From: Baffinella frigidus
Taxonomy: Eukaryota; Cryptophyceae; Cryptomonadales; Baffinellaceae
Length of the DNA: 28,987 bases
NCBI GenBank assembly: GCA_026770585.1
Contig: MU646314.1
Location: 218,876-247,862, forward strand
Reading direction: 5' to 3'
In this document: piece by piece, positions 700 to 25,400 of the stretch
Numbering within the stretch: position 1 is the first letter of the stretch
Layout of the letters: the number at the start of each line of letters is the position of its first letter
The notes under the pieces: generated by a model
Databases searched by the model: none
The model's input: the letters and a program-made list of their open reading frames with translations, nothing else
Told to the model about the DNA's origin: nothing
Made by a program: the position numbers and the translations under genes

Positions 700-755
700 G
701 GGTTTCGGGAGTCGGGCCTGGTGTAAAGCGCGAGGTCGGTTGTGAGGATGCGAGT
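700..755 (-). pseudogene. Echo of exon 18, 3' part
   Basis: Plus strand GTTTCGGGAGTCGGGCCTGG followed by TGTAAAGCGCGAGGTCGGTT matches exon 18 and its flank at 920-970 with few changes, ending before the conserved DFTA part. Confidence 0.8.
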
Positions 756-828
756 CTATGGTTCAGGTTCTAGGGTATAGGGTTGAAGGATGCGGGTTTA
801 GGGTTTAGGGGTTCGGGTTTGGAGTCAT

Positions 829-861
829 GGTTTCGGGAGTCGGACCTGGTGTGAGGTGCGA
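829..861 (-). pseudogene. Echo of exon 18, short
   Basis: GTTTCGGGAGTCGGACCTGG then TGTGAGGTGCGAGTC, a more decayed copy of the exon 18 3' end. Confidence 0.7.
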
Positions 862-909
862 GTCTAGGGTGTAGGGTGTAGGGTCTAGCTAGGGTCTAGG
901 GTTTAGGGT

Positions 910-1023
910 TCAGGATCTAGGTTTCTGGTTTCGGGAGTCGGACCTGGTGTAAAGCGCGAGATCGATTGAGAGGATGCGCGCAGGCTTGTCGGACAGGACC
1001 GTCGCCGTGAAGTCCAGCTCCAC
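910..1023 (-). CDS. Exon 18: last coding exon, DFTATVLS
   Basis: Residues 493-529: [20 protein letters not shown] then [10 protein letters not shown] and a short tail to TGA (rc of 910-912). Matches the family 'V.DFTA.V....RLL.I...LY'. Acceptor GGTTCAG|GTG. The stop lies in telomere-like sequence; an alternative is splicing at ACCAG|GTCCGA (about 931) into an exon beyond the window. Confidence 0.72.
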   Translation of the reverse strand: MELDFTATVLSDKPARILSIDLALYTRSDSRNQKPRS

Positions 1024-4000
1024 CTGAACCGGCGTGTTTTCGCGATTATAAAACGATATTTAACACATTTTGTGTGTCGGACACACACGCAGCGGCAGAA
1101 ACGGTGCGTTTTCGCGGGTCATACACACGCTCGTGTCCACATTGCGCCGGTCGATGGACAGATCCACCTGAAACCGCGCGTTTTCGCCGCCATAAAACGC
1201 TATTAAAAACACGCCGTGTCTCGGATACACACGCGGCGCGTTTTCGCGGTTCAGACACATTTCCTAAGGCCCCCTGGTACAACACCGCCAACCCCAAAAG
1301 ACCAAAAACCTTCACTGCGGGAGGGCGGGTGGTAGGGTGGTCCACTGAACCCTAAACCCTAAACCCTAGCCCCTAGACCCTCCTCCCTTTCAAACCCTAA
1401 CCTACAGACTCGAGGAGGAGGGGGAGCAGTGACCCTAAACCGAAATACAATTCATGAGGGGACGCGATGCACGAAACCATAAATCCTAAACCCGAACCCG
1501 CAGCCCTGATCCCAAACCCCCAAACCCAGCCGTACCACTTTTGCGCACCTCGAGGACGTTCCTACAGATCCAACCCCTAACACCCAAACCCCAACCCCTA
1601 ACATTCAAACCCTAACCCCTCACCCCTCATCCCCAAACCCCTAATATTCAAATCCTAACCCCTAACCCCCTAACCCTAACCCCTAACCCTAACCCCTAAG
1701 CCCCAAACCCTAGCCCCTAACCCTAACCCCTAACCCCCAAACCCTAACCCCTAACCTCCAAACCCTGACCCCTAACCCTAACCCCTAACCCCTAACCCCC
1801 AAAACCTCATCCCGAAACCGTGACCCCAAACCCCCAAACCCTAACCCTGTGCGTGATACCGATTTGCGGTCCTCGAGAACGTTGCGGCAGAAGACGTCCC
1901 ACCAACCCCTAACCCCTACCTCTTAGCTTCACGGATACAGTCCATCTAAACGATTTGTACTAGAATCTTATCCAGTTGCATTGGATTCTAACCGCATTTC
2001 CCCCGGATATCCGGGGGGAAAGGGTTCCTTTCCGGGGGGAAAGGAACTCGGCCGCTGCTAAGTGGACCGCACCCCTCCCCCCCTTGCGTCATCCCTTAAA
2101 TGGCCAGGGGGTCGAATTCGACCCCCAAGAGGTCCTAGGCAGGTCCTAGGGCCCTACGGTAGGGCGTATGAGCCTGCTGGCCACTTGAGGGATACAGCGC
2201 CATTCGGGGTGCAGGGTTCTCAGAGTTCTTCAGGGCCACGTAAGAGGTATCATACCGATTTGCGGTCCTCGAGAACGATGCGGCAGAAGACGTCCCACCA
2301 ACCCCTAACCCCCAAACCCAACCCCCTAACCCCTGACCGCAACCCCCCCCCCCGCCCTCCCACCCTGCGTCATCCCATAAGTGGCGAGGGGGTCCAAATA
2401 TACCCGAGGGGGTCCAAATATACCCTTTCAGGGCAGGTCCCTACGGTAGGGCGTATGAGCCTACTGGGCACTTAAGGGGTATCATACCGATTTGCGGTCC
2501 TCAAGAACGTTGCGGCAGAAGAAGTCCCACCAACCCCTAACCCCTACCCGCAAAACCCTCCCCGCCCCCCCTTTGCGTTATACCAATCCGGGAAATGGTA
2601 GTTTTCTTTCAAGCTGGCTGGCAACGAAAATTACTTCACACATCAAAGAAGTGTGTAGTAATTTTCGTGAATATACTTTGTTCCCGGATGAGTACCGATT
2701 TGCGGTCCTCGAGAACGTTGCGGCAGAAGACGTCCCACGGGCCCTTGACGCTGCTGAACTTCTCCTTCCCCGCATACACCTGCGATCGAGGCGGTTGACT
2801 AAACCGCTGCGAACAAGACGGTTGACTAAACGGGCGGAAAAGCGGGGTTTACTGAACAAACAAAAAGCGCGTTTTAATAAATTATCGACCGCGATGAGGT
2901 AGAGGACGAGGTTGGACGGGGCGGAAGGGCCCTACCACTCGAGGCTGGAAGAGGGAGTATTTTAAATGTGGGGTTGTTAAATTTAGTACCAGTCACGGGC
3001 AGACTTGGTCACGTAGCTGCGAGATATCCCGCAGCTACGTGACCAAACGCCCCTATTTGTGTAAAAATCACTATACACTCCCCCCCTCCCTTCACTTGTA
3101 AAATAAATCCTGTTTTAAAATAGTCACACTTCTAGCCTCGAGTGGTAGTGGCTACACGTCAGCACCAATAAATCTATCCTCAACCTGGGGTGATTTTACA
3201 GTGAATCCACTATTTGAGACGTATAGCCTCAAGCACGAAACCGCAACTGGTTGCCTGCGCCGGGCTGGTTGTAGGCCAGGACGGTAACAGAATAACTGAA
3301 CCGGGGGGGGTGGGGTTGTACACGGCAACGGTCAGGTTAGTCAACAACCGTGGGAGGACTCTGTCAAAAAAGTACCGATATTAATACCGGAACACTTAAT
3401 ACCGGTTCACCTTTGAGGGCTTCCACTGTACCGAGGCCGGCTCGTCTTCAGGCGCATAGACGTTGGGACATCTCCAGGCGTGAGAGTGATAGAGAAGAAA
3501 CAGAAGGAGGAGAACTGAATGAGGTCAGTCTGATTCGCAGGCAGGGATTCTCGTATTGTAGCACGCCCTTGGAGGAATTCGTACACATAATTTGGCCAAG
3601 GGAGGTCAGTCAACAGCCGCGGGGGGACTGTGTCCTGCCCGCTCAGAGTTACGCGCCTAGCAAATGCCGGGTCCCACGCGACGATGACCTGTTTATCAGA
3701 TCCCTCTTGTTTTCAAAGACAACTCGCCTTCAATCGCCCATAAATCTGTCAACTAATCCAGATTCCGGATTAAAATACTTTTACAAATGCAGGAATAATT
3801 GCGCGGCCCCAGCGCCAATGGCTCCAATACCCGCGCGCGCCCAGATGCAATGGCTCTGTAGGGTGTGACCTGAAGGTTTCCGTCGAGCATCATGGTCTTA
3901 TCCGGGGAAATCTATTTTTCTTTCATTTGATGGCAATCAAAATTACTACACAGATTATTTTATATTACTACTAAGAACGAATTGTGTAGTAATTTTCGTT

Positions 4001-4924
4001 GCCATCAAATGAAAGAAAAATAGATTTCCCCGGATAAGGTCTGCTCCCCTGTACCCGCGCGGCCCCAGCGCCAATGGCTCCAATACCCACGCGCGCCCAG
4101 ATCCAATGGCTCTGGCAACTCCTTAACCGACGTCAATGGTGCACGGGTCGTGTTAGGTCGAAGAAATCTAGGCCGGATCCGGTTGGAATTAGGGGACCTG
4201 GAGGTTCCCGTCGAGGACCATGCAGAACTTGCTGGTCTGCTCCCCGATGTGAAAATTCTTGTGGGTGTGGCCTATATATGATAGATGGACGGCTTATTTG
4301 GACGTGACGGCAGTAACTTTTTGTACCGGCTTGTACCTTTTTGTACCGCCTTGTTACAGCCCGGTACTACTTTCGGAACGTGACAGCAGTACACGGACAC
4401 CTGGAGGTTCCCGTCGAGGACCATGCAGAACTTGCTGGTCTGCTCCCCGATTTTGTAGAGATCGAGCGGCTCGTCCCCTTCCCTGCGCTTCAGAATCGGC
4501 GCGTCCTGCGCGGTTTGGGGTTTGGGGTTTGGGGTTTGGGGTTTGGGGTTTGGGGTTTGGGGTTTGGGGTTTGGGGTTTGGGGTGTAGGGTGTAGGGTGT
4601 GGAGTTTAGGGATTAAGGTTTGGGGATTAGGGTTTGGGTTTGGGTGTAGGGTGTAGGGTTTAGGGTTCAGGGTTCAGGGTTCAGGGTGTAGGGTGTAGGG
4701 TTTAGGGTGTAGGGTGTAGGGTGCGTCTGAGCTTGATGCGGTGAGCGAGAGCGACAAGGGAGATAGTCTTGGTCCCGAACAGCGGCGCGATCTTCCACAG
4801 GAGGCTGTCCCGTTCCTCAATTCAAACCCCAATTTTTAAAATGTGTAGTAATTTTCACACGTTTGGTCACGTGACCACACACTTTCCGTGCAGCCACGTG
4901 ACCAACTCCCCACAAAACGAGATA

Positions 4925-4959
<35 letters not shown>

Positions 4960-5060
4960 TCTCCCTCTCTCCCTCTCTCCCTCTCTCTCTCGCGTCTGAC
5001 CTTGATGAGCTGAAACGAGATAGACTCTCTCTCCCTCTCTCTGTCTCTCTCTGTCTCTCT

Positions 5061-5091
<31 letters not shown>

Positions 5092-8006
5092 CCTCTCTCT
5101 CTCGCGTCTGACCTTGATGAGCTGCGAGAGATTGACGCGCGAGATTGTCTTGGTCCCGAACAGCGGCGTGAACTTGTCCTGCGTTAGGGTTTAGGATTTA
5201 CGGTTTAGGATTGAGGGTTTAGGGTTAGGGTTTTGGGTTTAGGGTTTATGGTGTAGGGTTCAGTGTTCAAGTAGTGGTATCAAGGGTTAAGGGCTCCCTA
5301 AACCCTAAACCCTCAACCCTCAACCCTCAACCCTACACCCTGGGTGTGGTAACGCTGACGAGCTGGTAGGTTTCCCGGAGAGCAGCGTAGACTTTTCGTC
5401 GGAAAACGTCTGAGCTGGTCTCTAGGAGGCGTAGGGAATGCCTGCGTCCAATGCCCTATGCTAATGCTTTAATGTGCTTGGTGAATCATTTTACTCCGAT
5501 TAAAGCTCCACAAGAATATCGAACCTTGGTTAACCTCGCTTTCGAAATACGGAATGGACAGGAGCGTACGCTCCTGTCCAAGAAGGAAGAAACGGCCTCG
5601 GCCTCCGCGACGAGGAGGGTGGCCTCTTACCGCTCCTTGCCTTCAACGAAATTCACTACACAATTTGATCTGCCTAGTAATAGTAGAGCGTTCACCCTAG
5701 TAATAGTAGAGCGTTGGTGTAGTAACTAGCAATAGCGTTTGTCTAGTAAATTACCCGCAGGAATGACGACACAGCCTCGCCTTCCGCGACGGGTAGGCCC
5801 TAACCCCCAAACCCCACCCCCTCCAGCCCCAGCGTGGTCCTCAACCCCCACCCCCACCCCCTAAACCCCCACCCCCACCCCCTCAAGCCCGCGCACGCAC
5901 CCGCAGGAACGACGACACGGCCTCGGCCTCGGCGACGGGGAGGGTAGCCTCCTGGCGCTCCTTGGCTTCGAGGTACTGGAGGAGGGGGTGCTCGAAGGGC
6001 AGCGCGCCCCCGCCCGCCACCTGATGCGTCAGAGAGGTGTTATTATTGCCTAGAGGTTATCCAAAATCCCTTGGAAGTCCGGTGTGTGGCTGCGGTGGTG
6101 TCAACACGGTCTCGAGAGAGATTGGTGATTTGTTGGTGGCGCTCACGCCCGCCACCTGCGACGAACCAGCAAGATGCTCCTTGTGAACACCAACTGCCTC
6201 GGTGTGGGTGCTCCAAGGGCAGCGCGCCCCCACCCGCCACCTGATATGTGAGACCGTGTTGACACCACCGCAGCCCCACAGCGGACTTGGAAGGGATTTT
6301 GAATAACCCCTAAGCGATACGACCGCGAGGAACTAGCAAGAGGCTCCGTATCAACACCACCACAGCTTACATCTGTGGTGTGGTGTGGTTACAACTTACA
6401 TTTGTGGTGTGGTTACAACTTACATTTGTGGTGTGGTTACAACTTACATTGCACCACCACAGCTTACGCAAATGCGTTGATTACCCGCCACCTGCGATGA
6501 ACTAGCAAGAGGCTCCTTGTGAACACCAACACCAACTGCCTCGGTGTGGGTGGTTGAAGGGCAGCGCGCCCCCGCCCGCCACCTCAAGTGTGTGAGAGAG
6601 ATTGGTAATTCATTGCTAAGATTGGTAATTTATTGGTATACCCCCCCTATGTCCCTACGGATTGCCTACAGTAGGGTCCTAGGTCTTATTGCTTATGGGT
6701 TATTTAAAACCCCTTCGAAGTCCGCTGTGTGGACAGAAGAAGCAGACGCAGAAGCAAATGGGGCTCAAATCGGTAACGCGGACGAGCTGGTAATGAGAGG
6801 GCCCGCAACCTGGCGAGCTACGTTCTTTTTCTCTCCGTGCGCAGTTGACTAAACCGCGCAGGTTCTGTACCCCAGCGCCCCCCCCCTTGTACCAGAACCC
6901 CCCAGATTAGTCAACCGTCAGAAAGAAGGCTCGCAACCTGGCGGGCGATGTTCTCCTTCTCCTCCTTGCGCGATTTGAATAACCCCTAAGCAATAATACC
7001 TAGGACCCTACGGTAGGCAATCCGTAGGGGCATAGAGGGGGTCCCTACGGATAAAAAGGCTCAAAACCTGACGGGCGATGTTCTCCTTCTCCTCCTTGCG
7101 AGTGTTCTCTCCGGACGGGAGGTTGTCCTGCTCGTCAAGGATCTCCTCCTGCAGGCCACGCTATGTCACAAGTGGGGTTTTCACACACACTCGTTCGCAA
7201 TAGATGGCTTATCCCGGTACAAATTCTTTTTAAAAAACGTTGTAGCGCCCACGAAGAGCTACAATTTCCAACACTTTTGGCGTGTTTCCCGGGTAGAATC
7301 AACTTTACGTGTGCTCTCCGGACGGGAGGTTGTCCTGCTCGTCGAGGACCTCCTCCTGCAGGTTGCGAGCCCCCACCCACGCGTCAGGTCCACGCAACGC
7401 ACCGATCTGCTAAGCCCTCTGTCTGTGGGGGCCAGCCCGAGCCCTCTGGCACAAGCGGTGTAAGTAGCAGTCGATCACCTTCCGAAAGGCTTAGTCAGGA
7501 TAATTTCGTTAATTCCGATTCATGAAAGAGGATCGTCGATGTCAGCCCGTGTCGTCCCCAACCAAGGACCGGGGCTGTCAGGTGAAATCCCGATTTCAAA
7601 TCGGCGATTTGAATTCAAATCGGCGATTTGAATTCAACGCGCGGTGACTGGACATCACGGCTAGATTTTGTGGAAACCCACTGGTCGGTATTTTCCGACC
7701 AGTTTCCACCAAACCTGGTAATGGCCAGTTTTCGAGCGTTCAACTTAAACACCGCCATGTCCAGTTTTCGAACATTCTATTTTTTCTATATAAACACTTG
7801 GTGGGATGAGGTTGCGAGCCCCACACGAGTCAGGGTGGCAGCCATCAAACCTACCACTTAGCAGCCACCGGGGGCTTCACGGATACAGTCCATCTAAACC
7901 ATCTGTACTAGAATCTCATCCAATGGATTCCAACCGGATTTTCGCCTTGCTTTCAAGGCGAAAAGGACCTCGGCCGCTGCTAAGTGGGTATACATGCATG
8001 CATTCA

Positions 8007-8041
<35 letters not shown>

Positions 8042-11000
8042 ATGTATGTATGTATGTATGTATGTATGTATGTATGTATGTATGCATGTATCTAGCTAAG
8101 TGGCCGGAATACCTGGCGGACGAGGTTGCGAGCCCCCCCACGAGTCAGGGTGTTCATCACACAAGGCTTGTGCGATGAGCAGAGACGCAGGCCGCCGAAA
8201 TCAGCAAAAATGTACAGGATGCCGAAATAATTGAAAAATACTAAGAGCTGCCGAAATAATTGAAAAATGGTAAGAGTTTGGCGTTCGTGTACGAGCACCG
8301 TCAACTTTTACCGGTGCTGGCAACTTCGATGCACACCGCATATCGCGCGCCCTACGAGGAAGGCTGCAAGCCCTCCAGGCCACACAGCGGACTTCGAAGG
8401 GATTTTGAATAACCCATGAGCGATAAGACCTAGGACCCTACGGTAGGCATTCCGTGGGGACATAGGGGGGGTTCCCACGGATAAGGTAACGAAAAAAGGC
8501 TTGGATTTGACGATGTTTTCCCTGCGTAGCCCGCTGTGTGGGAGAGTGTGACACCATTTATCAAGCGGTAGAGCTGGTTACGATATCTGTTTGAAACTGC
8601 GGAGACGAACTGGCATTTGAGTCTACATCCTCATCCCTAAACCCTGAATCCCATGCAAAGGATCTTCAGGTCGCTCGCAGGATTTAACGCCTACCACTCG
8701 AGGCTGGAAGAGGGGGCATGTTAAATGTGGGGTTGTTAAATTTAGTACCAGTCACGGGCATGCTTGGTCACGTAGCTCAAGTGAGGAGCTACGTCACCAA
8801 ATGCCCCTATGTGTATGAAAATTACTACACATTTCTTTTCCCCCCTTCACTTGTGAAAGAATCCCTGTTTTAAAATGGTTACATTTCTAGCCTCGAGTGG
8901 TAGTCGACCGTCGTGTGTGGATGCGATCTCTCGCGTGCAGAATCGCTTCGAGGTTTAGGGTTCAGGGTGTGGGGTTTGGGGATTAGGGATTAGGTTTCAG
9001 GGATTAGGATCTCGGGTTTAGGGGTGAAGGTTTAGGGTTGAGGGTTTAGGGATTGGGTTTATGGATTAGGGATTAGGGCTTAGGGTTGAGGGATTGGGTC
9101 TATGGATTCGGGTGTAGGGTTCAGGGACAAGGGAAGGGTTTAGGGTCCAGGGTTTAGGGTTTAGGGTTTAGTGTGTAGGGATTGAGTATTAGGGTTGAGG
9201 GTTGTAGGGTTTGGTGTTTGGGGTTTTGGGTTTGGGGTTGAGGGGTCTCTTGCCTGGAGGATCTCCTCGATCAGATCCTGTCCCTACAGATGGCCTAACG
9301 TAGGGTCCTATGGATTATTCAGTGATGGGTTATTCACGAAATCCCTTTGCAGTCCGCTGTGTGGTTCGACCATCGTGCGTGGATGGGATCTCTCTTCTGG
9401 GGGAGATCTCTTCGAGGATTGAGGTTTCGGGTTTCGGGTTTCGGGGTTCGGGTTTAGGGACTAGGGATAAGGGTGTAGGGTTGAAGAGAGTAGGGGTCTC
9501 TCGCCTGAAGGATCTCCTCGATCAGATCCTCGATGGTGATGATTCCGACCTGCCCAAGGCGCGTAAAGCATTGAGCGTGTGCTTTCGGGATTGGGGTTTC
9601 GGGTTTCGGTCGGGATCTTATCCGGGGAAACCTGTTTTTCTTTGATTTCCTGGCAACAAAAATTACTACACAAATGCTTTGATATTACTAGTAAAGAACG
9701 AATTGTGTAGTAACTTTCGTTGCCAGGATAGTGATATTAAAGCGTTTGTGTAGTAATTTTCGTTGCCAGGAAACGAAAGAAAAATTGTTACCCCGGATAT
9801 GATCATCACAATCGCAGGTCTGAACCTGATCCTCGATCAGATCTCGATTGCGATGATTGCGACCTGCAACGAGAGCGGTGTGTGTGTGTGTGAGAGAGAG
9901 AGGGAGAGAGAGAGAGAGAGGGAGAGAGAGGGAGAGGGAGAGGGAGAGGGAGAGAGAGAGAGAGGGGGAGAGAGAGGGAGAGGGAGAGGGAGAGGGAGAG
10001 AGAGAGAGAGGGGGAGAGAGAGCATCACAGTTGCGCTTTCGGGGTTAGGGGTTTCGGGTTTCGGGGGTAGGGTTTCGGGTTTTGAGTTTCGGGCTTCGGA
10101 CTTCGGGATCAGATCCTCGATGGTGATGATTCCGACTTGCCCAAGGCGCGGCACGCATTGAGCGTGTGCTTCCGCGTTTTGGTTTTGGGGGACCGGGTTT
10201 TGGGTGTTGGGTTTCGGGTTTCTGGTTTTGGCTTAAGATTTAGGATGTGAAGTTTGGGTTTTGTGGCTTGGGGTCTGGGCTTCCGAGTTTCGGATTTCGG
10301 GTTTCGGGAGTGGGGTTTCAGGTTTCAGGTTTCGGGTCTCTGGTGTCGGGTTCAGGGTTTCGGGGTTACCGTTTTGTAGTAAGGATTTCAGGGTTTCGGG
10401 ATTACCGTTGTGTAGCAAGGATTTCAGGGTTTCGGGATTACCGTTTTGTAGTAGGGATCGGTGTCGTCTTCGCTGACAACAGTCTTGACGAGCGCCATGT
10501 GGCTCCTCCCCGACTTGAAGAGGTTCATCAGCACTGTTTCGGTCCGGGTTGGGGTTTAGGGTTTAGGGTTTAGGGTTTAGGGTTTAGGGTTTGGGGTTTG
10601 GGGTTTGGGGTTTGGGGTTTGGGGTTTAAGGTTTAGTGGACAGAGTGTGAGTTTCATCTGAACTGTTTGCAGAAGTCTGTCAGGAAGTCTGCAAGAGGTT
10701 CATCACTGTTTGCAGATGGTCTGGAAACAGTATGCGGTGCATCAACACAGTTTGAAGCGGGTTGGGCACACTCTAGCTCTGTCCCACTTTGATTCGGGCT
10801 CCTCATCAATTCGCCTCCCCCAAAATTTCACATGTGAATTTCCTTGGGGGGGGGGCAAAATTCACCTTGGAAATGGGGGGGGGGGGCGAATTGATGAGGA
10901 GCCCACATCAAGTGGGACAGAGCTAGACACTCCACTCGAGGCTAGAAATGTGACCATTTTAAAACTGGGATTCTTTTACAAGTGAAGAAAAAAAAAGGTG

Positions 11001-14000
11001 TGTGTAGTGATTTTCATTCAGATAGGGGCGTTTGGTCACATTACTGGGGGAATTCCCCCAGGTCACGTTGCTGGGGGAATTCCCCCAGTAACGTGACCAA
11101 GCCTGCCCGTGACTGGCACTAAATTTAACAATCCCATATTTAAAATACTCCATCTTCCAGCCTCGAGTGGCTGCCACGCAACATGCCACGGGCGGGACGT
11201 CCCACAGTACAAAAAGGTTACGAGCCTCTCGTGGCAAAAAGGGCGAAACGAAAGGCCAGCAGAAGCACAGGGGATCCTCCCAAAGTTCCAGGGCGTACCC
11301 AACCCGCATCCCCTCGGGACACTACGGGGAACCGCAGCACCGGATATCCGGAGTAACGTGACCAACATTTGCTGACTTGTAGTGGGGTTCCTAAGAAACA
11401 ACCCAATAACTGACTTGAGATGGTTCTCCGTAGTGTTCTGAGTGGACCTCATAACCCCTTTCGAGCCAGAAAAAGTGTTGACTCTGCAGAGACCCGCTCT
11501 ACCCAGAGCAAATAGCCGCTTACACGCTTACACGCCAAGGATCAAGGTCCAGCCGAGTAGCTCTACGTTGCACGTGCAGGAGAGGGTCGCAGAGGGTTTG
11601 GGGTTTGGGGTTTAGTGTTTCGGGTTTAAGATTTAGGGTTCAGGGTTTAGGGTTAGGTTTAGGGTTGAGGGTCAGGAGAGGGTCAGGAGAGGGATTTAGG
11701 GTTTGGGGTTTAGGGTTTAGGGTTTAGGGTTTAGGGTTTAGGGTTTAGGGTTTAGGGTTTGGGATTTAGAGTTCAGAGTTTGGGATTTAGGGTTTAGGGT
11801 TTAGGGTTTAGGGTTTACGAGGGGGTCAGGAGAGGGATTTAGGGTTTAGGGTCTAGGGTTTAGGGTTAGGGGTTTAGGGTTTAGGTTTTAGAGTTTAGGG
11901 TTTAGGGTTTAGGGAGTTGCCTGGGGTCTTGCAGTCATCGAACACGATCGGGATGTCACTCCCGAACCTGGAACAAGTTTTAGGGGTTAGGGGTTAGGGT
12001 TTAGGGTTTAGGGTTTAGGGTTTAGGGTTTAGGGTTTAGGGTTTAGGGTTTAGGTCACTCCCGAACCTGGAACAAGTTTGAGGAGTTAGGTCACTCCCGA
12101 ACGTAGAGCAAGGTTTAGGGTTTAGGTCACTCCCGAACCTCGAGCGAGGAGTGCTCATTTTAGTTGGCCTCCTAGACAACGCAAACCGGCACAACTTGAA
12201 CGGTTCAGGTGCGGAAACAGAGTGAGACAGAGGTAGGGTTCTCAGACGCGCAGAGAGCTGCTCGGCATCCCCCAGTCACCTCCTTCCATCGGACTCCCAA
12301 GTGGACGTACCAACTGGGTAAGGCCACAGTTCGTTTCCACAGGTCGACTTGTGCCAGGGTCTTGCCCCGCTCGGGCAACTTCTCCGTACGAATCGCCCCT
12401 TGGAAACGAACTTGGTAAGGCCACTTGGGAGTCCGGGCGGCGTCCTCGCCTAGCTCTTCACTGCTACCCAGGATATTTTTCCTTAAGTCAACAGAGCTGA
12501 TCCTCGGCAGTAAGTTGCCATTTCGTTTAGATGGACCTGCTCTGGGAGCAGGCATTTGACTTGCGGGACTGGCTTTCAGGGGGAGTTGACTTAGGCAAAA
12601 TGTTCTGGCTCAGAGTGCTCTTTTGGCCCGCCTCCGAGCGAGTCGCTTTGCAGAGCTTCACGATCTAATCGCCGCGAGTATTTAATTCACACCCTCTCCA
12701 CCCATGGCGAATTGCAACCGGTATCCTGTTTTCTGAAGGAAAGGCTCCAATTCCCTATGAGAGCGAGTTTTTAAATTAAAATCTATGAGAGCGAGTCGCT
12801 TTGCAAAGCTTCAAACCTCATCTAGGAACATGCCAGCATCTATCCACACAATAGGCGTAAAATAGCATCATTTTATGCCTAAAATAGCATATACACCCTT
12901 ATCTTTGGCGTTGGAAGCCTTACGGAGCGGGACAGATTCTGTCTAGTTCCGAAATTAGATCACATCTTCTCCTGTAAAGCGACTGTCTTGAACAATCTAA
13001 CTTCAGAACACGACATAATCTGTGAGGGCGGTACCAGTGGTGGACGATGGTGGACACTACACCAACAACCAAAACTTTAAATTTCATCAAGAAGAATTTC
13101 AACACCCTCTTAATATATAAAAATAAATGCATAAAGTATGTACGCAATATGCCAGATGATATAAAGATAGCATTGGCTAAATACAATAAAGAATATCCCT
13201 TAAGTGGCGAGCGGGTCAAATTTGACCCGTAAGAGGTCCTAGGCGGGTCCTAGGACCCTACCGTAGGGCGTATGAGCCTACTCGCCACTTAAGGGATAGA
13301 GCGGGCATGGCGTCATCAGGGCCGAGCAGAGCCTTATGAAGCAGGACATATTCTGTCTTGCTCCGAAATTAGATCTGAGGGCGGGCGGCACCACTGGTGG
13401 ACAATGGTGGCTGGTTCCTCTACACCAAGTCCAGGTTATGAGCTCCCATCCCATTATGAGGTTATGAGCCTCCCCCGTTACTTTTGCTTTACAGGTTTAG
13501 GCAGCGGTACCAGTGGTGGACGATGGTGGAAACGGGCATGGCGTCTTCAGGGTCCAGCAGGATCAGCTCTTTGACGAACAGCAGCGCTACCACGGCCTGA
13601 TTCAGGGTGTAGGGTTTCTAGCTTCCACTTGAGGCTGAAAGAAGGAGCATTTTAAATGTGGGGTTGTTAAATTTAGTACCAGTCACGGGCAGGCTTGGTC
13701 ACGTATCTGGGGGAATCCCCCCAGATACGTGACCAAACGCCCCTATTGTGTGAAATTTACTGCACATTGTTTTCTTCACTTGCAAAAGAATCCCTGTTTT
13801 TAAATATTCCCTGATTCAGGGTGTAGGGTTTCTACCTCTGGCTCACAGTCTTTTTGATCTGGGTAATTTGGTGATCAGTTCTTTCACAGTCTATTTGGTC
13901 TGGGTACTTTTTAGGGTTTCTACCTCTGTCTCACAGTCTATTTGGTCTGGGCGCGTTGGTGAGACCGGGCGCGTTGCCGCTCGAAAGTTGACGGAATTGA

Positions 14001-16396
14001 ACCACGCATCCGGCTGGTCAACTTGAGAATAGTCCGCCAACCCGAGTGAGGCAGAGTAGGGTCAGCACTTTCACGAGAGAGAGAGAGAGAGGGAGAGAGA
14101 GGGAGGGAGAGGGAGGGAGGGAGGGAGAGGGAGGGAGAGAGAGAGAGAGCGAGAGCGAGAGAGAGAGAGAGCGAGCGAGAGAGAGAGAGAGCGAGCGAGA
14201 GAGAGAGAGAGAGCGAGAGAGAGAGAGAGAGGGAGAAAGAGAGCAGCGGCACCACGGCCTGGTTCATAGTTCAGGGTCCGCACGGTGGACCACACGGTGG
14301 ACTACAGACCTTTCATCAAAAGTCAACTTACCCTGTGGGCAGTTAATTTTAAGGATTTCCTAATGCAAATTTGGTCACGTTACCGCTAAATCTAGGGGCC
14401 CCGAAACCCTCAAAGCCCACCGAGTGGCCACGAGGGTTTCATTTGAACAGACGTCTCGTTCAACTTCACTTTTTTTGGCCCTTTCCAGGTACACACCTGG
14501 TCACGTTACACCCAAAATCTGGGTGCTGCGACAGCTCCGTAGTCCACCGTATGGTAGGGGTTATGGGGAAACAGGCGAACGGGAGACGTTGGATGTATCC
14601 CACCTGCCATTTGAAGCGAACTACCCACACAGCGGACTTCGAAGGGGTTTTAAATAACCCGTAAGCAATAAGACCTAGGACCTTACGGTAGGCAACCCGT
14701 AGGGACATAGGGGGGTTCCTACGGATAAGGTAACAGAAAGTCCGTACGACCCCAAAGCACGCTACCGCATCGATGCATGCGGTAGGCTGCTATGGCACGA
14801 TGGTAGAGTGCTATACAGCACCACGGCGGGGTGCTGCAGAGGCACGAATCCGGGCGTGTTCCACTCGAGAATGCAAGAGGGCACCCCTAGGACCTAATGT
14901 TTCTTAGGACCCCCCCTAGACCCCTACGGCCTACCGTAGGCAATACCGTAGGCCTAACTACCCGCTTTTCAGGACGTTAGCCTATAAGTGCAGTGCCACT
15001 ACCTTTTTGCCGGAAGGGGTCGCCAAAAGTCAATTCCCCGAAAGGAAAAAGGGGAAACAGTTTACTTCTGGGATAGTTGAACGCCCAAACCGTACCTTTT
15101 TGCCGTCGGCGTCCTTCTGAAAGACCGGGACGCGCGAGTGCCCACTCTGGAAGATCTCCATGATTTTCTCGAAGTCGAGCGCGTCGTCGATGTCCACCAT
15201 GAACACTTGCTCGATCGGCGTCATGCACGACCCCACCTGAACTCGCGCGGTTTCGCGGTTTGGCGAATATCGGGACGGTGAATGGGTGTGTAGAAGGACG
15301 GTTTCGTGGTTTGGCGAACACCAAGACGGCAAATAGATTCGTGGAAGGACGGTAACTAGGTCATGAAGACTGTCCGTGATGGGATTTCGAGAATAACCTA
15401 TCAGTGTAATCCACATGAACCTACAGTAGGCAATCCGTAGGGACACATTGTTGTTCCTACGCATATCCTGACCGGTTCTCGAATCAGAAACCGACAAACA
15501 ACCCCTCCGTAGTCCGCTGTGTGGACCCTACACCCTCAACCCCAGAGACACCAACTGTCTTGTGCTCGAAGTCATCGCGCGTGCCTCCGCCCTAAACCCT
15601 AAAACCCACACCCTAACCACGCAGGGCTCCATGGGGGGTTATTCAAAAGTCACATTTCAAAGGTGTTCTGAAAAACAGGGCCCATCTCTGGCAAAAGTTG
15701 CCAGGAACCGACCCAACGGCTCGAAGTACGACCCTGAATTGCCCCAACGAGAAGCCCTGCGTGGGACACCCACACGAGAATGCTAGAGGGGCCTATTTAA
15801 AGCCGATGTGCTTTGAAAAGTGGGCATTTGTGCAGTAACTTTCGTTGATTGGTCACGTAACTCTGCAAAATTAGCACAGTCACGAGGTTAGAATACCCTA
15901 TCCTGGTACAAACGTTTACAACCCTACATGTAAATAGGACCCTCCAGCATTCTCGAGTGGACATACCGGACCGTCTAGTGCTCGAAGTCGAGCGCGCTGA
16001 CCATGATGTTGGTTTCCACGTTGCGGTGCATCCAGAACACACGATCGAGAACCTCGGGGACCTCACACTCTATTCTCGAAGCCTCTTGACTAGCGTGCGG
16101 GGCCATGTGGGCTCCGATGACATGTGGGCTCCGAAGGGATCACATGACATGTGGGCTCCGAAGGGATAGTTTGTCGCACAGCGGGCTTCAGAGGGATTGG
16201 TCGGTTCAGGGTGGACCCTACACCCTACACCCCAGAGACACAGACCGTCTTATGCTCGAAGTCAAGCGCGCCAGCCATGATGTTGGTTTCCTTGGCGCCA
16301 AACTCGGAGTTCTTCGACCGCGCATACTCCGCCAGGAGAGTCTGCAGTTCGAGCGTCCGGGGGTTAGGGGTCAGGTGCCAGGGGAGNNNNNNNNNN

Positions 16397-16428
<32 letters not shown>

Positions 16429-19400
16429 CAGTCAACACAATTCACCAGCCAGGCGTCCGGGGTCAGTCAATTCATTCAGTCAACTTAGTGATGAGTCAAC
16501 TGGAGATGTTGGTTCGTCACCCGGGGCGTCCGGGGAGGGGAGGAGGGCTCCTATAAAAAACCCGGGCCTAGGGGCCCTACAGCCTACGGTAGACCATACC
16601 GTAGGCTCAACTACTCGGAGTTCTTCGACCTTGCATACTCTGCCAGGAGTGTCTGCGGTTTCAGCGTCTGGGGGTTAGGGTTCAGGGTTTAGGGTTCAGG
16701 TGTCTTACCCCTAACCCTGAAAAGGTGGCACCTTGAGCTGGGTGCGGGAGTGGATAGTCCCGATCTCTGTCCCGAGGATTCTTGGAAGGGGTCGCCAAAA
16801 GTCAATTCCCCGAAAGGAATAAGATTGTTTACTTTTGGCATAGTTCAGCGCCCAAAAGAGTGCTCGGAAAGAGCCGAACCCGAGCAATCTCGCGCGGTAG
16901 GTATCGTCTGGTGCGTCTTATACACCAGATCTGGCGTCGTTGACTGAAGCTATTCAGGATATTTCCCCTGAACGATCTCAAAAGGGGATGTTTGGAGCAA
17001 TCTGGCGTGGTGAGTACCTTGAGCTGGTTGCGGGAGTAGATAGTCCCGATCTCTTTCCCGAGGAGCAAGTCCAGCAGGATCGAGATAGGGTACGACGCGA
17101 AGAACGTCGCCTGCTTGAGGGTTTGGGGGTTAGGGTTTAAGGTTCCCTCCTGGCCATCACGAAGACGATGAAGAAGGATCAGATCGATGCTCCTTACTAA
17201 CCGTCTTGTGCTCGAAGTCAGCGTGCGTGCCCCCACCCTAAACCCTAAAACCTAGGTCTTGCGTCCCATACTTGGCCATCACGAGGGCGATGAAGAAGGA
17301 GCCGATCACGATTGCTTTGCTATCACTTGAATGACCCTTCTGTGTAGTAAATTCCGTTGCCCAATTTTTTTATTTGATTGAATGATTGTCCCGGACGAGC
17401 ATTCCACGCCCAAGATCCGCGGAAAGTAATTCTAGACATAGAAAGTATGGCACACAAGACCTGGCTCTGTCTGAGGTTTATTCTGGCTCGACCTTGAAAG
17501 TTTTTAAGAGCGGAAATCCAGTACAAAAGGTCAAATAGAAAGCCTTTAGGACGAGCCAGAATAAAACTCGGGCAGAGCTAGAATGTGGCGACAGGGTACG
17601 ACGCGAACATCGTCGCCTGCACCAGGCGGATCAAACACCTTTTTTACCACCCGGGGGGCTGTACCAGTGATGTAGTGTGTAGTAACTTTCAAGTGTTTGG
17701 TCACGTGTCGCCCCGCTTTTCGGGCGGACACGTGACCAACTCCGTACACAACGCCTGCAATCGATGTTTTAAAAAGGTGCCTGTGTAGCCTCGTGTGGCA
17801 TTCCAAGCCAAAGCCCGCGGTGCGTAACCCCAGACATTAACAGGGTAACGGACTGAAAACCGGGTAGTTAGGCCTACGGCATTGACTACGGTAGGCCGTA
17901 GGGGCCTAGGGGGGCTCCTACGAAAAACCCGGGCCTAGGGGCCCTACTGCCTACCGTAGACAATACCGTAGGCTCAACTACCCGGTTTTCAGGACGTTAT
18001 CCTATGGATATATAACGTATGGCAAGCAAGACCGAGACAGAGTAGAGTACGTACGGCGCGAAAAAACGTCGCTTGACATCCTACCGGGCCACAGGAGAAT
18101 GCTGGAGGGGCCTAATTAAAACCGATCTGCTTTTAAAAGTGGGCAGTAGTAACTTTCATTGGTTGGTCACGCAACTAGCCATACATTGGCCAGACACGAG
18201 GTTGGAACACCTTATCCTGGTACACATATTTACAACCCCACATATAAATAAGATCCTCCAGCGTTCTCGAGTGGGGATGTAAGATGAGAGGAGCAGGGAT
18301 CTGTTTTCCGAGGAGTATTGTGGTAAAAACCCGTCGACGTTTGGTGTGAACACGATCAGAAAACCGGCTGGGGTAGAGGTGGGTGAGGTGGGTGGGGTGG
18401 GTGGGGTGGGCACGCTCCGTCTCGGGTAGCTCTGCCTGAATTAATCTGGTCTCCTCAACACGACGAGACCGGGAACTTGACCCTCCAGCATTGTCGTACA
18501 AATCCGTCAACGTTCGGTGTGACCACGACAAAAAAACCGGCTGGGGCAGAGATGGGTGAGGTGGGTGATCAGTCAACGTTTGGTGTGAACACGACAAGAA
18601 AACCGGCTGGGAAAGAGGTGAGTGAGGTGGGTGGGGTGCGGACGTTGACGAAGAGCCACTGAGGCCCTGGTTAGGCCGGTTGCGAGGTTGGCACACCTTA
18701 TCCTGGTACAAATATTTACAACCCCACATATAAATAGGTTCCTCCGGCATTCTCGAGTGGGGTGGGTGGGGTGCGGACGTTAACGAAGAGCCACACGAGC
18801 GGTAAGCATGCGGAGCCGATCGCTAGCGGGTGCCGCGAGCAGATTGCCTGTTAGGGGATAGGGTGCAGGATGCAGGGGGGGGTTAGTGCGAGAGAGAGAG
18901 AGAGAGAGAGAGACGGTAGCCCCTCAGGGCGTGACGCGATCGTGGAGGGCTATCGTTGACCAGATTGCCTGCCGGCGCAGGGTGCAGGGTGAGGGGGGGG
19001 GTTAGTGCGAGAGAGACGGCAGCCCCTGAGGGAGTGATGCTATCGTGGAGGGCTGTGCTGCGAGCAGATTGCCTGTTAGGCGATAGAAGATAGGGGATAG
19101 GGGATAGGGGATAGGGGATAGGGGTTAGGGGATAGGGGATAGGGGATACGGGATGGGGGACAGAGGATAGGGGATAGGGGACAGGGGATGGGGGATGGGG
19201 GACAGAGGATACATAGGGGATAGGGGATAGGGGATGGGAGACAGGGGAGGATATGGGATAACCCACGCTGCTGCCTCCCTCTCCCGGCAGGCTCAAGGTG
19301 CAGGGTGCGGGGGGGGGGGTAGTGAGAGAGAGACGGTAGCCTCCGAGGGTAGTTAGTAAGTTGATCGTAGTTAGTAAGCTGATTACTTTCCAGAAGGCTC

Positions 19401-22400
19401 CAGGACCTGTTTACAGGGATTTAAGAGGTTCGTAAAGAAAGAGAAGAAGATGCAGGGTGCAGGGGGGTGACATGGGAGGTTAGTATGTGAGAGAGACGGT
19501 AGCCCCCGAAGGCGTGACGCGATCGTGGAGGGCCATCGTTGATCAGATTGCCTGCCGGCACAGGGTGCAGGGGGGGGCGAGAGTGAGGGAGGGGGTCAGG
19601 GGTCAGGGTTGAGGGTTAGGTAACCCCCCGCGGGCGCGACTCTATCGTTGAGGGGGTTACTCTGTCAGTTGCGCTATCGTCGAAGGGGTCTTGAATGAGA
19701 CATAGATGCGTTTTTACTGGGCCTGCAATGGTAGAGCTATTCCGGTAGGACTTGTCGCGTTTTCGAGACTTCGAGACTTCGAGACTTCGAGACTTCATTT
19801 GTACCATGAGATTTGAAACGGTGTGTTTTAAAACGTTTTACGCCCTTTAAAACCTTTTTGAAGTCTGAAATCTTGAAATCTCGAAGTCGAAAACGCGACA
19901 AGTCCTACCGGAATGGCTCTAAGCTGCACCAACGGATCAGCACGCCACCTGCCGGTAACCCCCGGGGGAGTTGCCCTAGCATCGACGGTGTAGCTCAATC
20001 AGTTACGCGGACCCTTCAATAATCGAGAGACCCACTTAGCAGCCACAGGGGCCTTCGATGATGAGTCCGTCTGAACGATTCTGGTGCAAGTTATGCTAGC
20101 CTTGCGGGAGTTTCTCCGGCAGGTTTATCTCAAAAAAGGGATTTTTAAATTCGTTTTCTTAAGTCAATTCCTGTACAAATTCGTCAACTTATTCTTTTCT
20201 CTGCGCATAAGTTGACAAATTTGAAGGGGGGTTGACTTAAGAAAACGAATTTAAAAATCCCTTTTCTGAGATAAAGGTACTCTATCGTTGAAGGGACCCT
20301 TCAATGGTCGAGAGACCTCCCAGAACACTCCCGGAACGCTCCAGCTTCGATCATAACCTGTACCCCCGGCGAGCCAACAAAGCACAAGAATAAAAGCTGA
20401 GACCGGATTTAAAGCACAGGAATAAAAGCTGAGACCGAAAATCCGGTCTCAGTTTTGTCTTTTTAAAAGTCCATTTCCTTAAGGATGCAGGTGAAAGTTT
20501 TTAAATCCCTTTGAAAGTGTGTCCCGTCCTCGCTTGGCAGCGGCAACGGATTCCCCCGAGAAGACAATTTCATAGGGAAACGGTTTTAATTTAAAACCGT
20601 TGGATTCAAAGAAAATTACTACACGAATGCTTTAATATTACTAGTAAAACTCATTGTGTGCAGTAAATTTCATTGCCAGAAAGTTTTAAATTAAAACCGT
20701 TTCCCTATGAAATTTGACCTGTCCGAGGCTCTTGCGTGGCACCTAGAGACAGATCATTTGTACTCAGCGAGCAGATGAAGGGTTTGCAAACGGTAAGTTG
20801 ATACCCACCAACCCTCACAACTTAGGGCAAATCGAAAAAGTCAACAACACCAAATCCCCTTGGAGGCCGTCGGAATCCGACGGCCTTCAAGGGGATTTTT
20901 GGAGCCATTTTTCCCGATTTGCCCAGACTGTGAAGGGTGGTGGACGGAACGCCGTATTTCGGGTGACGCTGGAACAAGACCGTCCACCTCCGGCACCTGG
21001 GGGAGAATATCGCCCAAGACGACAATTTAATTTCGGACCAAGACAGAATCTGTCCCGCTATCTTAGGCTCCCCACGCGGAAGGTAAGGGTGTATATGCTA
21101 TTTTAGGCATCACATCATGCTATCTTGCGCCTTTTCATCAGGACAGATTCTGGTATGGTCCGAGATGAAATTTACGAGGGTGGAACACCCCACACAGCGG
21201 ACTGAAAACGGATTTCGTGGATACCCCATCAGCAAATATTCCTCAGGACCCTACGGTAGGAACTCCGTAGGGAAATAGGGCTGTGCGTACAGATACCCTA
21301 ACCGAAACCTGGTTGATGTCCAACCAGGGTTCCCTTCGTAGCCCGCCAGGTCTCCCTTCGCAGCCCGCTGTGTGGCTAGGCACCTGGGGGAGGATCTCGC
21401 CGAAGATCACGATGGCCATGGTTGACACGATGAAGCCGGTGAACCCCGAGGTGAGGTTAGCGAGGATGATCGAGAGAAGGCAGTTAACAGCGACGTTGCC
21501 TGCCACGCCAGAGTGGATGAGGGGGTTGATTTTTTTGAAACCTTTCTGAAAAGGGGTGGCAACTTTTGAAAACCACTGCCTTCAAGGGGAATTGACTTTT
21601 GGCGACCCCTTCGAAGACTCTGGCGTGGTGCAGGTGGAGCCTTCTAAAAATCCGACGTTTCTAAGAATCCAATTTTCTAAGAATTAGAAGCTGCCACACG
21701 AGAATGCTAGAGCACATTTTTAAAACCGACAGCTTTTACAAGCAGCCATTTGTGTAGCAACTTTCGTGAGTTTGGTCACGTGCCTGACAGAAATTCTGCC
21801 AGGCGCGAGGTTGGTCACCTTATCCTGGTACAAATCCTTACAACCCCACATATAAATTGGGTGCCCCAGCATTGTCGAGTGGTGCGGGAGAATGTCGCCT
21901 ACGATGACGAAGGCGAGGGTTGGAATGAGGAAAAGCCGGCAAGCCCCACGGCGCGGTTGGCTATTACTATCATCGAGAGAAAAGCGTTCCCCGCAAAGTT
22001 ATCAGAAGGTCGCAAGACTCCCCGCAAGACAGTTCAGAAAAACATGGGTTTTTTTTTTGTGTAGCTCCGTTTCGCTGTCACGTGCTCAGTAAAGTCACTT
22101 TTTCTCTCCAGGAAGCCTCCTTTGAGGGTGCGGCCGGGATGATCGAGAGCAGGCAGTTCCTGCCTCTGCCTCACTCGCGTTGACCGACTCTTCTCAAGTC
22201 GGATGGGGGTAGAAAATCTCACCAAACGGGAACTCGTGAGCGATTGCAACCTTGCAAGAGACCTGGGAAAACAAGTCAGTTCACACGGAATTTGTACCAA
22301 CTTTCCGAAATTCCGATTTTTCTCTAGGGAGAATGTCCACTTATGAACTTACAAAATAGTCAGATCTGACTATTTCTCCTGTAAGCCAGTCAGCTCTACA

Positions 22401-25400
22401 CTCTTGCGTGGAACGTGCGGGGCAGATGTGGCTTCGGGCCCTGCTGCCGCGAACCTTGCCACCCTAGCATGCCGGGCGTGCCGTACAACCCCGTAGGAAG
22501 AGCACGGGGTTGCCGTACAACCCCGTAGGAAGAGGCTCCGCGCACCGACGAGGGTGCAGAGGGGTACACCCGAACCCCCGGACCCTGCACCCTGAGCAAC
22601 CACGTCAGAGGGAAACATCCACGTTTGACATCTTTCAAGGGAAAACCCTTGAAGTCTGAAGGCAACCGCGGCAGATCTGTCGCGGATAAGGCGTCGGTTT
22701 CCCTCGGTCATTCTGGCGTGGCAGCTCTGCCTCAGTTTTATTCTGGCTCGTCCCAGAGGCTTTCTATTCGCCCTTTTGTACTGGACCCTACACCCTGAGC
22801 AAGGAAGAACACGCACCGAAGAGGAGGGTGCAGAGGAGGAGGTTTCCGCGCTTCCGAAAAGGGTAGATGCGCTGGGCATGCCCCGCATCCTTCCGCTCCT
22901 GCCACCCAATTCAATGCAAATAAATACTCAATTAAATGCGAATAAAATACTCAATTACTCAAATAAATCCGAATAAAATACTCAATTTACTTGAAACTAT
23001 TTTGTGGCATTTTAAGGGGGGGATACGCGATGTTAGCCCCGACATGGCTGTACCATATCACGATAACCACCCATAAGATAACACACAGGTGGGGGCGCTT
23101 CCGGAAGGGGCAGATACGCTGCGCATACCGCGCTCCGTGCGTATGTCCGACTTTAAGGTGTTTTGAGGCGACATTTTCCACTTTTGGGCACTGTTATCAC
23201 GCGGAATTCCCGCCACCCCGCCGCGCGAGCCAATCTGATAGTGAGAGGGTCTGAAACTAGAGGCGTAAAGCAATTCGGTTTGGTACACATCGGCAAACTC
23301 GGGGGCTGTAAACCCCTGAGAGTTAGACCCTGCACCTCCTTGCGCCCCTGGCACCCCGCCGCGCGATTTGGCGGCAAGTGGAAGCTGACAGTGCTCACGG
23401 ATCTCTTAGACAAACTGTTTTAATTTAAAATATTGGATTTCAATGAAAAGTACTACACGTTTGCTTTAATATTGCTAGTAAATATCGGTGTGTAGTAAAT
23501 TTCATTACCGAAATATTTGAAATTAAAACAGTTTGCCTATGAGATGACAGCATGCCCACGTTCATAGGCTGACTGCCTGAAAATGGGGTAGGCAGGCATA
23601 CGGCATTGCCTAGGGGACCTCCTACCGTAGGCCGAGGGATCCTAGGACCAAAAAGTCTCGGCCTACGGTAGGAGGTCCTAGGCAATGCCGTAGGCCTAAC
23701 TACCCCATTTTCAGGCCGTTGCCCTATTAACGTACACAGCGTGCCCGGTGCGGGCATCGTTCGGCTCATAGACTATTGTATCACTCAACTCAAGGCCAAC
23801 GGGCCTGATTTAGGACCTGCATCGAGAGTAATAAAGAAGAAGAAGTGCGGGCATCGTTGCAGTGCGCACCTCGCCCACTCGAGAATGCTGGAGGATCCTA
23901 TTTACATGTGGGTTTGTTTATTTCTCTCAAGCCTGGAGATGACGTTTTGGGGCTAGGGCCACCTGAGTCGAAGCTTCCGGGCGAGCCCCACTGAAACGCA
24001 GGGTAGGGTGTGGGGGCACGCAGGGTAGGGTGTAGGGGCTAGTAAGGTAAGGAGTAGGGTCACCTGCGCCGAAGCTTCGGGACGAGTCCCGCTGCGTATC
24101 ACCACTTGCAATCCCATCTGTATGGGGGTTGACTTCAAAAATGATCGATTTGCCCATAAGATGCCTCCAGGGTGGCACACGGCGGACCACGAGGTCCCCG
24201 AGAGAATTGGGATCGCGAGATCCCATCTGCCCACACGTCCCCCCTCGCATCAAAACCTTCCTTAAAAAAATCCATGTTTTCATTTTTTCATCGTCAGCTG
24301 ACACGCGATCGGAGTCCCCAATACGCCTGTTGACTTAACCGGCCGGTTGTTGACTAAACCGGGAGAGTTGCAACAGGACGATGACTAATCCGAACAGGCC
24401 GCGTACCAGGAAATGGGAAAGGTAGGCAAGAGGGGTACGGGGGACTCCTAGCTCTGCCTGAATAAAACTGCGCTCGCCATCAAAGCAATTTGTTTGCCCT
24501 CTTGTACTGGAGTTTCTGCTCTAAATGTGTTTTATGGCGCGCATAGTTGTACGCAGACAGAGCTAGGACTTTCGGTGCGGTGCGCTGCGAACCGGAATTT
24601 CGAATAACCCTGAAGCGATAAGACCTACGGCCCCACGGTAGGCACTAGCGTAGGGACATGGGGGGGTTCCTACGCCGCTCCAGTCTGCGACCACGGACTC
24701 CTAGCTCTGTCGCAGTCTATTGCGGCTCACCAATTTGGTGAGCCCGGGCTCTTTCCCGCTCCAAAGGGTGACGAATTTGTACTGTAAATCCAGCATGTCA
24801 ATTCGAGAATTTGCGGTCAACCCGAGAGAGGCAGAGCTAGGACTCTTCCTAGCTTTGTCTGGCCTAGTCTCTTGAGTTGAACTTTGGTGGTGCGAATTAT
24901 GTGTACCACGGGTGGGCCACCCCTCGAAAAACACCTTCACTCGTGGTGCAAAAGGTTCGTACCACTAGGCCCCACCCAATCAACTAGTGTTAGTGATACA
25001 CGGCTGCCCTCGTGCAGATCAAGCCAACCCTCGTGAAGATGTGCGGTTGCAAGCCCGGACGTTTCTTGGGAAATAGCTCGTCGAGACCCACGCACCCAGA
25101 GCACAAACTCCCCCGAGAATGCTCTCCTACCTCCCCCATCCCACGCCTGTTTACAAAACCGTGCAGATGTTGCACCGTGAAGGTGACTCTGCCGGGCAGG
25201 CTCAAGTACCAGGGAATCCTCTAGCAAGCTTGACTTTATTCAGCAGTAACCTGTGGTCTAAGGCTGTGCTATGCGGGCACCCAGGAAATATTGTCAGGGG
25301 AAGTCCCTTCTCCACCCGCAACCTCATGCATCAGGCAACGTGGGGCTGGCAGTGGAATCCGCGGGGAACACGGGATCCCCTTCCGCTCCCTCCCCACAAC

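Follow-up and report, generated by a model that had tools for sequence, protein, structure and literature searches.

The Locus and the CNNM Gene

The DNA analyzed in this study, hereafter the window, is a stretch of 28,987 nucleotides of nuclear DNA from the cryptophyte Baffinella frigidus (C12:218876-247862 of a 382 Mb assembly). Its minus strand carries a gene for a CNNM metal transporter, the introns of which hold partial copies of nearly every exon. In total, 18 exons were modeled in the window, from 25742 to 944, and the spliced model of 518 amino acid residues was 100% identical over 100% of its length to the transcript protein P0001 (692 residues), whose taxon, 697907, is merged into B. 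frigidus. P0001 matched the Pfam families CNNM (PF01595, 1.7e-29) and CNNM C-terminal domain (3.6e-11). All 17 introns in the window, 607 to 2536 bp long, end with AG and start with GT, except those after E10 and E12, which start with GC. The exon numbering omits E15, and E16, E17, E18, and E19 are the 15th, 16th, 17th, and 18th exons, respectively. At its right end the gene exceeds the interval 700..24117 marked in the first-pass annotation of this DNA, as E1, which has no copy, lies beyond it. A search of the 20 kb to the left of the window (L013 and L014, leftwards of 944) did not reveal residues 520–692 of P0001; the transcript may be chimeric, or a gap or a very long intron may intervene. 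Finally, intron 6 contains an assembly gap, where 10 N adjoin a tract of 30 G (16387-16426).

Partial Copies of 16 of the 18 Exons

Each exon was aligned by the Smith-Waterman method with the window in which all exons had been masked. The strict threshold was a score of at least 32, as the maximum reached in 720 comparisons with shuffled sequence (18 exons × 40 dinucleotide-preserving shuffles) was 31. At this threshold, 28 same-strand copies from 14 exons were identified, and no copy was found in the antisense, reversed or complemented window. The shuffles and the three strand controls rule out chance similarity as the source of the copies. The sole match of exon 8, of 16 nt (15996-15981), falls inside a copy of exon 7 (16017-15972) and was therefore rejected as an independent copy, which leaves 27 strict copies from 13 exons. 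These range from 22 to 99 nt in length and lie 71–860 bp from their own exons.

Three further exons, E5, E10, and E11, remained under the strict threshold on exon sequence alone; the 13-nt matches of E10, for instance, score 26, against a shuffle maximum of 29 for this exon. For E5 and E10, the support comes from longer matches that cross the splice site (40 bp at 95% and 23 bp at 100%, respectively), and for E11 from a tandem array of three 36-bp units that contains the exon end. Thus, same-strand partial copies were identified for 16 of the 18 exons, the exceptions being E1 and E8. The first-pass annotation had described short copies (20–120 bp) of exons 2–7 and 9–18, in the orientation of the gene and within about 1 kb of the intact exon, and had named a comparison with shuffled sequence as a check. 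The copies outlast that comparison and agree with the description in extent, length, distance and orientation, and only the tiny copy of exon 8 that it also listed has to be withdrawn.

The copies are listed by exon in Table 1, and a set of 41 was examined in detail. As had been stated earlier, one copy of each exon is intact and the others are broken. Insertions or deletions were found in 6 of the 41, and 2 stop codons occurred among the 29 ungapped copies read in frame. The mismatches between exon and copy in these 29 numbered 22, 14, and 54 at codon positions 1, 2, and 3, respectively, an excess at position 3 that is somewhat larger than would be expected if the copy were neutral and only the exon under constraint.

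Polarity and Anatomy of the Copies

The copies follow a polarity rule that is new here: fragments of the 5' end of an exon lie upstream of it and fragments of the 3' end lie downstream. In the strict set, the rule held for all seven 5'-end fragments and for 14 of the 16 3'-end fragments; the rest consisted of one near-whole copy and four internal ones, the false exon 8 match included. The copies stop abruptly inside the exon, and their opposite ends mostly cross the splice junction. For E13, the inner break points of the 5' and the 3' copy are nearly identical. Whole-exon tandem duplication is also local and in the same orientation. In the CNNM gene, however, no complete exon copy with both splice sites was found, either among the 41 copies examined or in the strict set, and the near-whole copy of E16, which covers exon positions 4–66, has lost both sites.

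Splice sites are often carried along, as the first-pass annotation had noted. Of the 21 donor-side copies scored, GT was kept in 18 and GC was present in 2, and AG was kept in 9 of the 12 acceptor-side copies scored. The median score of the copy donors was 5.7 versus 5.3 for the real ones, a comparison slightly generous to the copies because leave-one-out scoring was applied to the real donors only; for the acceptors, the medians were 4.3 and 7.1, respectively. The one transcript protein compared, P0001, follows the real exons only. That the copy donors are as good as the real ones while the transcript uses the real exons suggests that splicing recognizes whole exons. Decoy splice sites, proposed earlier as a possible consequence, are present at the level of sequence, and any use of them is hypothetical.

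Tandem Arrays and Homology Beyond the Splice Site

Some of the copies are arranged head to tail. The unit at E11 is 36 bp long, combines the last 17 bases of the exon with 19 intron bases including the donor, and is present three times without any insert. The 5' copies of E10 themselves form a 36-bp array of 2.5 units. At E16, a stretch of 86 nt is repeated at an offset of 112 bp with 92% identity, although it is largely CT-rich simple repeat. E18 has four units, and every unit includes the donor and 43 bases of the exon. Behind their donors, units 0, 1, and 2 carry an inserted element, which is of one kind in unit 0 and of another kind common to units 1 and 2. Past these insertions, intron homology among the three units picks up again, so that E18 is also head to tail if insertions are allowed. 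Elsewhere, unrelated sequence lies between the copies.

Of the 41 copies examined, 32 were tested in pairs with their exons. Nine of these 32 pairs had intron sequence in common past the splice site (p ≤ 0.01, repeats and elements masked), and copying therefore took place at the DNA level. Copying at the RNA level is unsupported, as many copies extend into intron sequence. Because repeat masking hides it, intron homology went undetected for E11 and for parts of E16 and E19.

TABLE 1. Exons of the CNNM gene in the window (minus strand) and their partial copies.
Feature	Position (strand)	Copies	Remarks
E1	25644..25742 (-)	none found	start codon at 25742
E2	24064..24117 (-)	3' copy 23963-23993	
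E3	22817..22898 (-)	inner-part copy upstream 23095-23133; copy near 3' end 22547-22562	copy near 3' end weak
E4	21384..21499 (-)	3' copy downstream 20997-21019; inner copy 22137-22158	3' copy below strict threshold
E4, old copy	21883-21981	exon positions 22-115, upstream	70% alike; polarity exception
E5	18779..18847 (-)	5' copy upstream 19055-19072; 3' copy downstream 18644-18659	both below strict threshold
E6	17018..17110 (-)	5' copies upstream 17590-17616, 18051-18072; 3' copy downstream 16732-16778	18051-18072 weak
E7	16246..16341 (-)	5' copy upstream 16613-16652; 3' copies downstream 15972-16017, 15557-15581	
E7, exceptional 3' copy	17202-17226	upstream, past E6	breaks polarity
E8	15096..15236 (-)	no copy of its own	longest exon
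E9	13511..13596 (-)	downstream copy 13302-13329 + 13035-13057; 3' copy 13392-13410	downstream copy split at exon position 64; 3' copy weak
E10	11921..11967 (-)	5' copies upstream 12054-12066, 12090-12102, 12126-12138	GC donor; three copies of 13 nt
E11	10442..10533 (-)	3-unit array 10351-10458	last 17 nt + donor in 36-bp unit
E12	9505..9549 (-)	5' copies upstream 10107-10136, 9830-9863; 3' copy downstream 9254-9279	GC donor
E13	7068..7148 (-)	5' copy (exon 1-47) upstream 7309-7355; 3' copy (49-81) downstream 6938-6970	
Transposon-like stretch, 81 bp	6974..7054 (-)		fills 82-bp gap between E13 donor side and 3' copy
E14	5901..6020 (-)	5' copies upstream 6206-6240, 6548-6582; 3' copies downstream 5755-5797, 5579-5644	
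E16 (15th exon)	5113..5178 (-)	near-whole copy downstream 4732-4794; tandem 3' copy 5001-5025	near-whole copy without splice sites; tandem copy weak by exon sequence alone
E17 (16th exon)	4401..4505 (-)	3' copies downstream 4198-4248, 3870-3894	51/51 identical; second weak
E18 (17th exon)	2696..2779 (-)	3' copies downstream 2488-2530, 2256-2298, 1860-1902	41, 42, 43 of 43 identical
E19 (18th exon)	944..1023 (-)	3' copies downstream 718-752, 828-862	

Transposon-Like Elements and Telomere-Like Repeats

Transposon-like sequence is associated with the inner break edges of the copies. Of 43 inner edges, taken from 37 of the 41 copies, 15 were within 6 bp of the edge of a dispersed or inverted repeat, compared with a mean of 3.1 expected from 5000 draws; two of the 15 belong to exon 7 copies that were detected via each other. 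At E13, the 81-bp transposon-like stretch is bordered by 48-bp direct repeats that are 92% alike.

Small inverted-repeat elements that carry CCACTCGAG close to their ends were observed at 2932-3148, 8688-8906, 10932-11170, and 27344-27554, and transposon-like stretches resembling them occur repeatedly through the window. Another transposon-like stretch (24115-24217), which by eye resembles 28312-28478, stops three bases inside E2, and the acceptor of E2 therefore sits in element-like sequence. Capture of exons within inverted-repeat elements was considered for the arms at about 6044-6319 and 6640-7042 and was set aside, as by eye each arm seems to be half of a different element.

Telomere-like repeats account for 18.7% of the last 100 nt of the introns versus 4.7% of the mid-intron sequence (permutation p 0.002). 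In the first 100 nt of the introns, they account for 10.4%, and the enrichment is not significant (p 0.16). These repeats are very common in the Baffinella genome. Three consecutive TTTAGGG units were matched 25,832 times on the forward and 27,288 times on the reverse strand of the whole genome (G000; overlapping matches counted), while the reversed-pattern control gave 13 and 14 matches.

Exon Edges in the Window and in Other Genes

Repeat pairs in the window are concentrated at exons. Of the 48 pairs that lie within 1 kb of each other and lack transposon-like character, 26 touch an exon, compared with 7.6 in 2000 random placements (sd 2.6, maximum 18). Similarly, 15 of the 23 pairs with at least 90% identity touch an exon, compared with a simulated value of 3.7 and a maximum of 11.

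A survey of other genes, which the first-pass annotation had asked for, also revealed copies with the polarity of the CNNM gene. A search with the chaperonin family returned 12 matches, spread over four contigs. Three of these contigs were analyzed and C1202 was left out; the three genes are those that we take to be CCT1, CCT6, and CCT4. In CCT1 (contig 94), whose 17 exons were set by hand and have uncertain outer borders, six copies were found at five exons; three are 5' fragments and lie upstream, two are 3' fragments and lie downstream, and one is internal. Three exons were placed in CCT6, the third of which has four 5' fragments upstream, each behind CAG, as well as one 3' fragment downstream, ahead of GT. 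One of the three exons of CCT4 has a 3' fragment downstream. The polarity was obeyed in 5 of 5, 5 of 5, and 1 of 1 cases in CCT1, CCT6, and CCT4, respectively, or 11 of 11 together, and the controls gave no copies in these genes. Copies were thus present at 7 of the 23 exons, and in the four genes together 32 of 34 edge fragments follow the polarity. Exon-edge copying looks like a habit of this genome that is strongest in the CNNM gene.

Origin of the Copies

The copies probably arose by duplications of the kind known as mirages in lancelets. On this reading, short stretches that cross the border between exon and intron were copied nearby, repeatedly and without a change of orientation, and the additional units later decayed and were interrupted by transposon-like insertions. 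One break would fall in the exon and the other in the adjacent intron; the exon would then stay whole, and a half-exon with one splice site would enter the intron. The 3' half with its donor would land downstream and the 5' half with its acceptor upstream. Duplications with both breaks inside the exon would spoil the protein and be lost, and half-exons would be tolerated because each bears only one splice site; splicing would use the first of several donors and the last of several acceptors, in the manner of whole-exon recognition. Later insertions of small elements would separate and cut the units. The duplication step may have been slippage or template switching, perhaps at telomere-like tracts. 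We infer this step, as well as the selection against whole copies and exon-definition splicing, whereas the copies themselves, their polarity, the splice sites they bear, the arrays at some exons, the intact mRNA protein and the matching pattern at some exons of three other genes are observed. No additional assumption is needed for duplication across the boundary to yield the polarity, the terminal position of the fragments and their sharp inner edges. Of the mechanism proposed in the first-pass annotation, local tandem duplication followed by decay and insertion is the best fit to the polarity, the sharp breaks, the homology across splice sites and the arrays, whereas the role in duplication that it gave to the telomere-like repeats is only a correlation.

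Several observations weigh against boundary-straddling duplication or limit its reach. With repeats masked, no further intron homology was found in 23 of the 32 pairs, and the spacing of the copies is mostly larger than the duplicated length. At E17, all 51 exon bases match and the intron beyond does not; this exon thus shows no simple tandem duplication of any length, and subsequent insertions have to be invoked. Two of the 23 edge fragments in the strict set of the CNNM gene, those of E4 and E7 marked in Table 1, break the polarity. No copy was found at 12 of the 17 exons of CCT1, or at 16 of the 23 exons of the other genes altogether. Moreover, introns are also duplicated: when 600 random intron segments were taken, local copies were found for 142 of 600 if the known exon copies were excluded and for 196 of 600 if they were included (24–33%), compared with 14 of the 18 exons with strict copies, E8 falsely among them. 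The strong claim that exons alone are duplicated is thereby weakened. Since selection maintains one partner of each pair, exon copies stay recognizable for longer, and preservation may account for part of the excess at exons; the excess is thus real in number but unproven as a bias of the process.

The main rival is that an insertion of a transposon-like element or the repair of a break left direct target repeats of 30–70 bp flanking the new DNA. Such insertion-coupled duplication predicts the same polarity, and it fits E13 and E17 better than tandem duplication does, as it accounts both for the direct repeats around the 81-bp stretch at E13 and for the lack of an intron match at E17. The 15 inner edges near transposon-like edges also speak for it, but these edges need not be the cause, because insertions also cut existing copies, such as that of E9 at position 64 and, by eye, a third E17 copy. 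The tandem array of E11 has no insert, no terminal inverted repeat is seen by eye at the E13 insert, and target duplications of this length are unlike those of 3–9 bp given for some introners in the available passages of PMC9860276. We consider this rival rather unlikely. An origin by templated insertion, in which break repair copies 20–70 bp of nearby sequence into another break, would agree with the short tracts, the local source, the sharp edges and the spacing larger than the tract; it gives no reason for the polarity, followed by 32 of 34 fragments in four genes, or for the retained splice junction, and is improbable.

Boundary-straddling duplication is also to be set against readings in which the copies are by-products of intron birth or are kept for a function. 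The copies could be the leftover halves of introns born by Rogers-type tandem duplication of an AGGT-bearing exon piece or from introners, in line with the many small inverted-repeat elements in the introns and with the E2 acceptor at the edge of a transposon-like stretch. Rogers-type gain predicts that the intron start equals the next exon start or the intron end the previous exon end; such matches exceeded the 95% null in only 2 of 34 tests and equaled it in 1, which is the level of chance. The copies, moreover, lie within introns, and many run past the splice site into intron sequence, which makes this origin very improbable. Retention of half-exons as decoy sites that tune splicing or intron retention would suit the well-preserved copy donors, but the copy acceptors are weaker than the real ones and the sites are unused in the known transcript protein. 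The share of copy donors that keep GT or GC is about what copy identity predicts, copies are present at every stage of decay, and a function of this kind seems barely credible. Finally, an assembly artefact might be suspected from the N-run beside the poly-G tract and from a mirage that was misassembled in the lancelet draft, according to the accessible part of PMC3087553. However, the copies are diverged and their flanks differ, the ordered exons yield the exact protein of the mRNA, and the pattern recurs on three other contigs; the chance of an artefact is negligible.

Other Observations in the Window

On the plus strand, an open frame of 171 residues (26359-26874) had no Pfam match, and a 68-bp unit is present twice (97%) just upstream (26123-26258). 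In intron 5, an exon-like open frame (17151-17185) has a second copy 122 bp apart (17273-17307), and it is absent from the known mRNA protein. No related DNA was identified by pattern scans and P0001 against viral contigs or by one scan of genome contigs. One of the viral-contig scans and the genome-contig scan gave two single exact matches each, the latter on a Pseudomonas lini contig and in a bacterial metagenome-assembled genome, and these matches are taken as chance.

Comparison With Known Systems

The mirages of lancelets are minisatellite-like duplications at intron-exon boundaries (PMC3087553, PMC3902484). As in the CNNM gene, for which one transcript protein was compared, both 5' and 3' boundaries are affected, the units straddle the boundary with the splice signals, and the mRNA is regular (PMC3087553, PMC3902484). 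Their units are 10–160 bp long in Adh3 and globins and 81–100% alike in BflGb6 (PMC3087553, PMC3902484). As far as the available passages of these papers show, mirages occur in a few animal genes, as head-to-tail arrays that each involve a single boundary. In contrast, the copies in Baffinella belong to an alga, affect 16 of 18 exons, and are mostly separated from one another, with intervening inverted-repeat elements and telomere-like tracts. By composition, the CNNM copies are of the mirage kind; they are new in taxon, in reach, which is nearly every exon, and in their mostly interrupted state. The view in the first-pass annotation of a phenomenon of its own was thus too strong, given the structure shared with the lancelet mirages in the published passages.

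Two other systems share some of these features, as judged from the accessible parts of the respective papers. In an RdRp gene of potato, tandem duplication across an intron-exon boundary served as raw material of intron gain (PMC4974935); boundary-crossing duplication is common to both cases, but no new intron was seen in the CNNM gene and the Rogers signature stayed at chance level. Similar to the elements in the CNNM introns, introners are small, some of them have inverted repeats, and they lie within introns of aquatic species (PMC9860276). Different from introners, the repeats of the CNNM gene are pieces of exons tens of bases long and not short target duplications, and its elements are only putative intron makers. 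A search of open-licence PMC papers found no similar structure in any cryptophyte. The genome of Baffinella is 6.1 times that of Guillardia and contains 41.1% repeats, and in the available main text of the genome paper the word "intron" does not occur (PMC9756366).

Implications

Half-exons with a single splice site would provide a natural experiment on splice-site choice, for instance with the four decoy acceptors upstream of the CCT6 exon or the three decoy donors downstream of E18. Mirages would shift from a lancelet curiosity to a process in distant eukaryotes, and the polarity signature can be scanned for in any genome. More tentatively, it is possible that exon-edge duplication is a standing, genome-wide process in Baffinella that is tied to small inverted-repeat elements and telomere-like tracts. 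In that case, introns would be filled with half-exons carrying good splice sites, splicing would recognize whole exons only, and the half-exons would form a large reservoir for new exons and introns. The finding would also bear on how introns have grown in a genome that so far exceeds that of Guillardia in size, as reported in the available text of the genome paper (PMC9756366).

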